A stretch of DNA of 39,461 bases from Parcubacteria group bacterium LiPW_41 (GTDB lineage: Bacteria > Patescibacteriota > Minisyncoccia > UBA6257 > GWB1-50-10): assembly GCA_007375535.1 (NCBI GenBank), contig VMEM01000001.1, forward strand, positions 1 through 39,461, read 5' to 3'. Of the stretch, positions 8,361-10,291 are shown one piece after another. The notes below the pieces were generated by a model, which worked only from the letters and a program-made list of their open reading frames with translations, did not search any database and had not been told where the DNA came from. Position 1 is the first letter of the stretch, and each line of letters opens with the position of its first letter. Position numbers and translations under genes: made by a program.

Positions 8361-8432
8361 TGCGGGAGAGAGCGGTGGTTGCTCGTCAGGCTCATAACCT
8401 GAAGGCCGTTGGTTCGAATCCAACTCCCGCAA
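8361..8432 (+). tRNA. tRNA-Met (CAT), initiator-like
   Basis: Folds as acceptor TGCGGGA/TCCCGCA, D-stem GAGC/GCTC, anticodon stem TCAGG/CCTGA around loop CTCATAA (anticodon 8393-8395), T-arm GTTGG-TTCGAAT-CCAAC, discriminator A. CCA is not encoded. The A11-T24 pair of the D-stem is the bacterial initiator signature, and the general sequence (GCTCGTC.GGCTCATAACC.GAAGG) resembles tRNA-fMet. It departs from the norm: the three G-C pairs under the loop are AGG/CCT, the 1-72 pair is T-A rather than C x A, and the usual T8, A14 and A21 are G, G and T. Confidence 0.85.
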
Positions 8433-8585
8433 CAAGTTGTGGTTATAAACCAACTGCTTGGTTTATAAGTTGGTTCGAAGGGCGGAGCGTTGTGCGAGTA
8501 GTAACGAGCACCGCGAGCCCGGGCTCGAAACAATTGCGAGCGACGGCGAGCAATTAGTCGAGAGGAATCCAACTCCCGCAACAAG
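8433..8585 (+). repeat. tRNA-linked structured element A (after tRNA-fMet)
   Basis: Between the tRNA and a terminator. Left part: GTTGTGG (8436-8442), a hairpin TTATAAA-CCAACTGCTTGG-TTTATAA (8443-8468), then GTTGGTTCGAA (8469-8479); the outer pieces together are an inverted copy of the tRNA acceptor/T-arm 3' side. Core: a 41-nt hairpin (8480-8520) GGGC-GGA-GCG-TT-GTGC, loop GAGTAGTAACGA, GCAC-CGC-GA-GCCC; then a second hairpin with stem AATTGC/GCAATT (8532-8555) flanked by CTCGA/TCGAG. Right end: a 21-bp exact direct copy (8565-8585) of tRNA positions 8416-8436. The left inverted copy can pair with the right copy, closing a multibranched structure. It codes for nothing convincing. Confidence 0.8.
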
Positions 8586-8587
8586 AC

Positions 8588-8609
8588 AAAAACCATTAAA
8601 TGGTTTTTT
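8588..8609 (+). terminator. Intrinsic terminator after element A
   Basis: AACCATT-A-AATGGTT stem with an A-run before and TTTTTT after it, immediately behind the second copy of the tRNA 3' end. Confidence 0.7.
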
Positions 8610-8659
8610 CTATTTTTGAGGACTAGGATAGCGAATCAAGGCAATAATTTGGTATAAAC

Positions 8660-8697: not shown

Positions 8698-8771
8698 GGC
8701 AGGGTAGCTCAGCTGGTTAGAGCGTGGGACTCATAAGCCCAAGGTCGTGGGTTCGACCCCCACCCCTGCTA
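8698..8771 (+). tRNA. tRNA with CAT anticodon (elongator Met or lysidine-type Ile2)
   Basis: Acceptor GGCAGGG/CCCTGCT (G1-T72 wobble), D-arm GCTC-AGCTGGTTA-GAGC (C11-G24, elongator type), anticodon stem TGGGA/GCCCA around CTCATAA, T-arm GTGGG-TTCGACC-CCCAC, discriminator A, CCA not encoded. Position 31-39 would be an A x G mismatch. Elongator Met and the Ile2 tRNA that needs TilS both carry CAT; sequence alone does not let me choose. Confidence 0.85.
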
Positions 8772-8773
8772 CT

Positions 8774-8917
8774 TGAAAATTGGTTTTTCTTTTTTGGGGT
8801 CGAAGAGTATTTGAGCGCGCGAACGCGAAAAGTGAGTGGAACGAACGGCAGCGAAAAACTCGGGCTCCGAAGGAGGAGCGAAAGCGACGGGTGAGGAGGA
8901 CCCCCACCCCTGCTACT
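8774..8917 (+). repeat. tRNA-linked structured element B (after second CAT tRNA), diverged
   Basis: A weak hairpin GAAAA-TTGG-TTTTTC with a T-run is followed by TGGGGTCGAAG (8795-8805), an inverted copy of the tRNA T-arm with one G missing. The core is GC- and purine-rich and unlike elements A and C overall, but keeps a GAGTGGAACGA loop (A and C have GAGTAGTAACGA), a GCGACGG motif, and a GCTCC/GGAGC hairpin. It ends with a 19-bp exact direct copy (8899-8917) of tRNA positions 8755-8773. Reading frames across it, including the upstream extension of the next gene, are not believable coding DNA. Confidence 0.7.
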
Positions 8918-8923
8918 AGTAGG

Positions 8924-9991: not shown

Positions 9992-10065
9992 GCGGTGGTA
10001 GCTCAGCTGGTTAGAGCGCTGCCCTGTCACGGCAGAGGTCGAGGGTTCAATTCCCTTCCACCGCG
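9992..10065 (+). tRNA. tRNA-Asp (GTC)
   Basis: Acceptor GCGGTGG/CCACCGC, D-arm GCTC-AGCTGGTTA-GAGC, anticodon arm CTGCC-CTGTCAC-GGCAG, T-arm GAGGG-TTCAATT-CCCTT, discriminator G, CCA not encoded. Canonical T8, A14 and A21 are present. Probably read from its own weak promoter or together with the C39-like gene. Confidence 0.95.
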
Positions 10066-10070
10066 CAGAC

Positions 10071-10097
10071 AAAAAACATTCGTAAGAATGTTTTTTT
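10071..10097 (+). terminator. Intrinsic terminator after tRNA-Asp
   Basis: AAAAAACATTC-GTAA-GAATGTTTTTTT. It stands between the tRNA and element C, so element C would be transcribed only by read-through or as a separate unit. Confidence 0.8.
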
Positions 10098-10098
10098 G

Positions 10099-10262
10099 TT
10101 TGTTGGTGGAAGCGAGCCAACTGCTTGGCTCGCGTAGGGAATTGAAGCCCGGAGCGTTGTGTGAGTAGTAACGAACACCGCGAGGGCGGGCCCGTAGACA
10201 ATTGCGAGCGACGGCGAGCAATTAGTCGGAGTGGCAATTGCCTTCCACCGCGCAGACAAAAA
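10099..10262 (+). repeat. tRNA-linked structured element C (after tRNA-Asp)
   Basis: Same plan as element A. Left: GGTGGAAG (10105-10112), hairpin CGAG-CCAACTGCTTGG-CTCG (10113-10132), then GGGAATTGAA (10137-10146); the outer pieces are an inverted copy of the tRNA-Asp 3' end. Core: 41-nt hairpin (10147-10187) GCCC-GGA-GCG-TT-GTGT, loop GAGTAGTAACGA, ACAC-CGC-GA-GGGC; then the AATTGC/GCAATT hairpin (10200-10223), identical to that of element A. Right: 28-bp direct copy (10235-10262) of 10048-10075 with one mismatch, reaching 10 nt past the tRNA. Stem bases differ from A in matched pairs while loops are the same. Confidence 0.8.
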
Positions 10263-10291
10263 TATCGCCCCTTACTAGGGGCGATATTTTT
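10258..10291. terminator. Bidirectional terminator between element C and gatA
   Basis: AAAAATATCGCCCC-TTACTA-GGGGCGATATTTTT, a 14-bp stem with A- and T-runs on both sides, at the 3' end of the convergent gatA gene. Confidence 0.9.

Follow-up and report, generated by a model that had tools for sequence, protein, structure and literature searches.

Hairpin-bearing non-coding repeats with target-matching arms downstream of tRNA genes in Patescibacteria

A repeated non-coding unit behind tRNA genes

The window, that is the whole 39,461-nt stretch of contig VMEM01000001.1 analysed here, belongs to the 747 kb genome of Parcubacteria group bacterium LiPW_41 and contains three tRNA genes (8361, 8698 and 9992), each of which has an element behind it (A, B and C, Table 1). 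Two 41-nt hairpins described in an earlier note, at 8480-8520 in A and 10147-10187 in C, are present there base for base. They sit in a 51-nt direct repeat with 86% identity, and a 31-nt perfect repeat follows.

The layout of the unit was read from all 43 tRNAs that ARAGORN finds in this genome together with their downstream DNA, and the unit is present at most operon-terminal tRNAs; in tandem tRNA operons it lies behind the last tRNA only. The common order is the tRNA with its 3' part (T1), often a terminator-like hairpin, an arm (A1), a core and a terminal segment (T2). A1 is the reverse complement of the T-arm of its own tRNA and often of the acceptor end too, and T2 is a second copy of the tRNA 3' end, starting at the T-loop. 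The whole element is non-coding and comprises about 130-200 bases. A strict terminator-like hairpin separates tRNA and core in 64 of 134 cases, and an H1-like hairpin, which splits A1 between a T-arm part and an acceptor part, is found in 106 of 152 homologues.

Cores were grouped by eye into F1 to F4. The F1 core is made up of two hairpins, H2 and H3, which are similar to each other and both carry tandem G.A. Its hosts in this genome are Met, Asp, His, Tyr, Leu, Glu, Thr and Ala tRNAs as well as an intron-bearing tRNA, probably Phe. The layout recurs with at least three further cores, F2 (that of element B), F3 and F4, which show no visible similarity to F1; these cores are located downstream of tRNAs at 8796-8918 of the window and at loci L008, L009, L018, L019 and L024.

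Table 1. Positions of elements A, B and C and their host tRNA genes in the window.
Feature	Position	Strand	Basis
tRNA-Met(CAT), host of A; T1 from the T-loop on, from 8413	8361..8433	+	ARAGORN, Rfam RF00005
A: outer A1 (GTTGTGG), partly complementary to tRNA acceptor end	8436..8442	+	sequence; outer-arm class test
A: hairpin H1 (TTATAAACCAA-CTGC-TTGGTTTATAA) within A1	8443..8468	+	sequence; H1-like homologues
A: inner A1 (GTTGGTTCGAA), reverse complement of tRNA T-arm minus one base	8469..8479	+	sequence; arm-match test
A: hairpin H2: GGGC / GGA-GA internal loop / GCG / TT bulge / GTGC / tandem G.A / AGTA tetraloop	8480..8520	+	sequence, folding, covariation
A: hairpin H3 (..AACAATTGC-GAGCGACGGCGA-GCAATTAGTCGAG..)	8521..8563	+	sequence, folding, covariation
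A: T2, second tRNA-Met 3' end (GAATCCAACTCCCGCAACAAG), identical to 8416-8436	8565..8585	+	repeat family D6
Terminator-like hairpin and T run behind T2 of A	8586..8610	+	fold; sequence
Second tRNA with CAT anticodon, host of B	8698..8772	+	Rfam, ARAGORN
Element B, between A and C: different core, same layout	8796..8918	+	sequence
B: A1 (GGGGTCGAA)	8796..8804	+	sequence
B: unrelated core F2	8805..8898	+	sequence
B: T2 (GACCCCCACCCCTGCTACTA)	8899..8918	+	sequence
tRNA-Asp(GTC), host of C; T1 from 10046	9992..10066	+	Rfam, ARAGORN
Terminator-like hairpin between tRNA-Asp and C (ACAAAAAACATTC-GTAA-GAATGTTTTTTTG)	10069..10098	+	sequence, fold
C: outer A1 (GGTGGAAG), complement of tRNA-Asp acceptor end CTTCCACC	10105..10112	+	sequence; outer-arm test
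C: hairpin H1 (CGAGCCAA-CTGC-TTGGCTCG)	10113..10132	+	sequence, fold; H1-like homologues
C: inner A1 (GGGAATTGAA), exact reverse complement of TTCAATTCCC in tRNA-Asp T-arm	10137..10146	+	sequence; arm-match test
C: hairpin H2, GCCC..GGGC form	10147..10187	+	sequence, folding, covariation
C: hairpin H3	10190..10234	+	sequence, folding, covariation
C: T2, second tRNA-Asp 3' end, 96% identical to 10048-10075	10235..10262	+	repeat family D5
Terminator-like hairpin behind T2 of C	10257..10291	+	sequence, fold

Pairing and covariation in hairpin H2

The 41-nt hairpin, H2, is a real and strongly selected structure. The earlier note had argued this from base changes that compensate each other between A and C; these swaps are real and above chance, but as A and C are two of ten F1 core copies in the genome (one of them partial), the comparison of two sequences contributes a small part of the evidence. 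Folding gave z = -3.0 for the core of C and z = -4.8 for a sister copy. In an alignment of 13 cores, made with MAFFT without structural guidance and hence free of a lean towards the structure, 85.8% of cells pair, compared to 65.3 +/- 1.5% after shuffling (0 of 500 shuffles), and the covariation score is 0.523, compared to 0.183 for shuffles and at most 0.169 for slid pairings. A covariance model (R1) then yielded 111 matches, 106 of them distinct, in 30 genomes of the same order. In this alignment, which was fitted to the structure of the model and is biased in its favour, 87.2% of cells pair (56.7% shuffled) and the covariation score is 0.732 (0.192 shuffled, at most 0.177 for slid pairings). 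The alignment of many homologues proposed as a check thus gave pairing and covariation above background, with background here meaning shuffles and slid pairings, not R-scape; neither a lack of such covariation nor loops varying as freely as stems was seen.

The idea that both pairing and loop are kept by selection likewise holds on the much larger alignment: tetraloop and internal loop are conserved, and the upper 8-bp stem varies freely, with 68 different 5' arms among 104 copies. The tetraloop is AGCA in 54, AGTA in 27 and AGAA in 7 of the 104 parsed copies (88 together). What had been taken for an open 12-nt loop, GAGTAGTAACGA, has to be re-read, however. Its AGYA tetraloop is conserved, but the remainder is paired (G.A, A.G, G-C, T-A and then AGTA), so that two G.A pairs and two Watson-Crick pairs precede the tetraloop. 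This tandem G.A at the loop base is present in just 14 of the 104 parsed copies and is mostly replaced by ordinary pairs elsewhere, e.g. GTGCATTC-AGCA-GAATGCAC. Regarding the bases described as unpaired and identical, the GGA/GA internal loop is conserved, with GGA found in 88 and GA in 105 out of about 106 copies, but the TT bulge is not.

The folded strand

Mismatches at structural positions are strongly asymmetric, with 146 G.A versus 35 T.C, which identifies the tRNA-sense strand as the folded strand. G.T and A.C are found 90 and 71 times at these positions, compared to ratios of 4.5:1 and 10:1 in tRNA stems of the same DNA, a comparison affected by additional A.C from misaligned H3 and by a tRNA baseline restricted to well-paired stems. 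The weak excess of G.T may lean away from a purely RNA constraint, although it is suggestive only.

The target-matching arm and the duplicated 3' end

For the 36 operon-terminal tRNAs of the genome, A1 scores 9.81/13 against its own tRNA (8.56 +/- 0.14 permuted) and T2, as a direct copy, scores 11.17/14 (8.32 +/- 0.17 permuted), while both scores are at background for the 7 tRNAs that have another tRNA next downstream. The match of A1 to its own tRNA is also found in 87 F1 copies from many genomes (10.5/13, compared to 8.5 +/- 0.11 permuted). In 80 elements the outer A1 arm scores 6.45/8 against the acceptor end of its own tRNA (5.31 permuted), and 44 of these have a 7- or 8-base match where 7 are expected. 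A1 is nearer to T1 than to T2 in 83 of 87 F1 copies, in a test that favours T1 since T2 is without the T-loop TTC. One A1 lags behind a change in its tRNA (L128).

In a minority of F1 copies the target is instead CACAAAAYGGA, located where the tRNA ends (e.g. L140, L146, L153). Arms that match such an extreme tRNA 3' end and not the T-loop were noted at L140, L142, L153:667-756, L081:2689-2777 and L259, and would represent a second attachment site.

Distribution among genomes and tRNAs

Within the order, 55 of the 199 genomes contain F1 core matches, and two of these reach at least 20 copies; a sample of 333 genomes across the phylum gave matches in 21 (this genome and 20 others). A same-strand tRNA or tmRNA immediately precedes 152 of 173 distinct F1 copies; most of the others occupy short contigs, belong to arrays or follow intron-bearing tRNAs. 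A pattern scan of named genomes gave mostly Patescibacteria (Yanofskybacteria, Paceibacterota, Uhrbacteria, Kaiserbacteria, Nomurabacteria, Saccharibacteria). Pattern matches in other phyla, e.g. Actinobacteria, come without a match to the covariance model and were taken as chance.

For 32 of 106 cores the nearest neighbour comes from the same genome, where 6.2 are expected and 2000 shuffles gave 17 at most; for only 5 of 106 is it on the same tRNA. Cores at Ile, Tyr and Gly tRNAs of one genome (G135) are 97% identical, those at Val and Arg tRNAs of another (G029) 98.9%, and in LiPW_41 the Leu and Thr cores are 97.8% identical and their acceptor arms are different, each fitting its own tRNA. 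Near-identical cores at different tRNAs would be explained either by transposition in which a new arm is made or selected, or by conversion of cores among resident elements.

Several further arrangements were noted. Tandem, partial second copies of the unit, as from unequal recombination between T1 and T2, are found downstream of tRNA-Arg at L016 and L021, and at L005:1530-1610. Group I introns (RF00028) interrupt tRNA genes, probably tRNA-Phe, directly upstream of F1 at L001:1102-1333 (contig C2 of LiPW_41) and L135:166-397, which accounts for the absence of a Phe tRNA from the ARAGORN results for this genome; such introns in tRNAs of these bacteria are already known (PMC8172020). A group I intron was rejected as the identity of the element, as the intron lies only in the tRNA beside one element and not inside the elements. 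A divergent second tRNA-His (L038:740-812; contig C3:66739 of LiPW_41) has no element, and its downstream sequence, unlike that of the other tRNAs, is possibly a mobile island.

Gain and loss at tmRNA and topA

Because the tmRNA gene is single-copy, its 3' end offers a clean orthologous site. Among ten relatives of one family the site is empty in three (G136, G145, G114), occupied by F1 in three (G186, G174, G153), occupied by another core in three (G180, G160, G167), and carries a truncated relic with A1 in one (G126); G057, with a match at a contig edge, was left out of the series. The unit gained in G153 measures 199 bp, and its T1 and T2 share a 67 nt perfect repeat. The flank beyond T2, not the one beyond T1, is collinear with the empty site of G145 (alignment score 139 versus 88), which would make T2 with its flank the gene end originally present, and T1-A1-core (or an equivalent shift of it) the piece that was gained.

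One F1 copy lies at the 3' end of a protein gene, topA (L103:1390-1660 in G167, also in G136), and topA is found without the element in five relatives. T1 completes the gene (..KTIPERCSNKACPNHNPHKLNKK and stop), and T2 repeats the last 22 codons (KTIPERCSNKACPHHNPHKLKK and stop) with differences that are nearly all synonymous. GC3 is 0.29 in T1, 0.73 in T2 and 0.59 in the rest of the gene, where no 20-codon window is below 0.30. T1, but not T2, is thus atypical for the gene, which suggests that the element brought T1 along from another genome and displaced the native end, now T2. A1 is a slightly better match to T2 than to T1 here, as would be consistent with a crossover within the 14 bases that T1 and T2 share (ACCATTCCGGAGAG). 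The same topA insertion occurs at L215 and L216 (G167 and G136) though the genera differ; cross-binning or recent transfer is possible.

Enzyme candidates and database searches

The LiPW_41 genome encodes one Xer-type tyrosine recombinase of 298 aa, one Y1-type protein and one reverse transcriptase. Its sole tyrosine recombinase scores 102 against a cut-off of 265 for integron integrases (partial protein scanned). Serine recombinases were not found in LiPW_41 and four other genomes. LiPW_41 also lacks the IS110 DEDD transposase (PF01548), which was found in 0 of 17 element-bearing genomes tested. Y1 (HUH) transposases were not detected in G015, G016, G029, G032, G007 and G025, all of which are multi-copy genomes, nor reverse transcriptases in G029, G032, G015, G007 and G025, and a Xer-type recombinase was not found in G015, which has 6 copies. 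As candidate mobilisers, tyrosine and serine recombinases, Y1 and IS110 enzymes and reverse transcriptases were all set aside, as none of them tracks the distribution of the element. Host Xer acting on the folded strand would be the most economical guess.

The elements contain no integrase gene, for which a unit of about 200 nt with a core of about 90 nt leaves no room. No excised or circular form was seen. An exact-pattern scan of viral contigs and a BLAST search of phage records gave no copy. In Rfam, at gathering and permissive thresholds, A, B, C and elements with other cores at five more loci match only by their tRNAs. The open literature searched, with subscription papers and preprints outside its scope, gave no description of the element.

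Origin of the elements

On balance we lean towards H2 being a module of a mobile element that is short, non-coding and non-autonomous and targets the 3' ends of genes for insertion, chiefly the T-loops of tRNA and tmRNA genes. The observations behind this are the architecture, the covariation, the target-matching arm, the 3'-end duplication, presence and absence at one orthologous single-copy gene, and near-identical cores at different tRNAs. Insertion would leave the gene intact, with a complete 3' end (T1) adjoining the 5' part and T2 lying beyond the element, and the gained unit would be T1-(terminator)-A1-H2-H3 of about 200 bp. With A1 complementary to the target 3' end, a circular or single-stranded A1-H2-H3-T would fold as one branched hairpin at the join. 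We infer that the folded tRNA-sense strand is the recombination substrate, as for folded attC and CTX-phage attP sites; the intermediate would be DNA, the recombinase would be supplied in trans, and H2/H3 would serve as its recognition structure. Weighing against mobility are the negative results given above: none of the enzyme classes searched tracks the element, and neither excised or circular forms nor copies in viral contigs or phage records were seen. More tentatively, and as a possibility that we rate as somewhat doubtful, the elements could form a new class of gene-less mobile element with several unrelated core families in Patescibacteria, consisting of an attachment site only and mobilised by host enzymes. 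Such an element would copy or carry the target 3' end in both orientations, through which each copy would have its own target-complementary arm.

The similarity relations of the cores bear on a reading without any transposition, in which old resident repeats have their cores homogenised by gene conversion and their arms kept complementary through template switches at quasi-palindromes as the DNA replicates. The similarity of T1 to T2 is often lower than that of the cores, and in several cases the cores of one genome resemble each other more closely than do the T1/T2 copies flanking them; this counts against mobility, as it also fits core conversion between old resident elements. Stems that change on both sides with few G.T intermediates, and the existence of tandem and truncated copies, are consistent with it as well. 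We nevertheless consider such repeats an unlikely explanation, as the arrival at empty tmRNA and topA sites would be left unexplained, as would an old duplicate T2 in topA that is still fully coding, and the lagging A1 of L128 argues against a constant correction.

The compensatory changes on the tRNA-sense strand, the orientation shared with the gene, the presence of tandem G.A and AGYA, as is typical of folded RNA, and an A1 that tracks the tRNA sequence could also be produced by a cis-acting RNA, co-transcribed with the tRNA, in which A1 pairs with T1 or T2 as a switch or processing signal for maturation or termination; the predicted RNA folds are indeed far stabler than shuffles (z -10.9 for C, -5.1 for A). 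Routine co-transcription is spoken against by the strict terminator-like hairpin ahead of the core in 64 of 134 cases, and pairing of A1 with T1 would break the tRNA. Given, in addition, that many tRNAs and tmRNAs are without the element, that orthologous sites are empty, that one copy lies behind a protein gene and that G.T and A.C stand at 90:71 and not at 4.5-10:1 as in tRNA stems, we regard an RNA function as quite improbable. Direct repeats of a tRNA 3' end, as found here, are the usual scar of tRNA-targeted integration, and the elements might then be what is left of a larger integrative element or prophage with coding capacity, which integrated at tRNA att sites and was reduced by decay to its ends. 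Their uniform and compact size, strong structural conservation and copy numbers of up to 20 or more per genome make this highly implausible, and no intermediate with genes between core and T2 is present among the copies read.

Significance

Although the genomes of Patescibacteria are very small, a structured element of 130-200 bases with an arm matched to its own tRNA lies behind most operon-terminal tRNAs in this one. If mobile, the elements would be among the smallest target-specific ones known and would offer natural att sites for genetic tools in a tool-poor phylum; if they act on tRNA expression instead, they would constitute a level of tRNA control that has gone unrecognised. A further consequence is that they can mislead the annotation of tRNAs and terminators. 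The covariation and the occupancy series at tmRNA and topA make the mobile and the RNA readings directly testable.

Comparison with known systems

Among short non-coding hairpin repeats, REP/RAYT and IS200/IS605-derived palindromic repeats resemble the elements in that one strand is recognised, but Y1 transposase is absent from several element-rich genomes, and we know of no 3'-end duplication or target-complementary arm in REPs. Rickettsia palindromic elements are similar as hairpin elements of about 100-150 bp that are spread across small genomes and occur also in RNA genes; to our knowledge they have no target-specific arm and no duplicated 3' end of a host gene.

The attP site of CTX phage, folded single-stranded DNA used by host Xer, is comparable as the elements would likewise be a folded substrate for a host recombinase, and LiPW_41 has a single Xer-type enzyme. 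The target here is, however, not known as dif-like, Xer was not found in one copy-bearing genome, and there are no phage genes. Integron cassettes with folded attC share the cassette-like arrays, an imperfect hairpin that probably acts as one folded strand, and conserved internal mismatches. In contrast to these, there is no gene in the cassette, no IntI was found in this genome and the attachment site is a tRNA T-loop; the R-box RYYYAAC...GTTRRRY is not seen at the hairpin foot in most F1 copies of this genome, which begin with GAAG and not with ..AAC. In tRNA-targeted integrative elements and prophages, with tyrosine integrases and attL/attR at the tRNA 3' end, we find the same duplication from the T-loop to the 3' end, an intact tRNA and tandem arrays at a single tRNA. 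The elements described here differ from them in being only about 200 bp long and having no integrase gene, and in carrying at least two structured hairpins and an arm complementary to the target.
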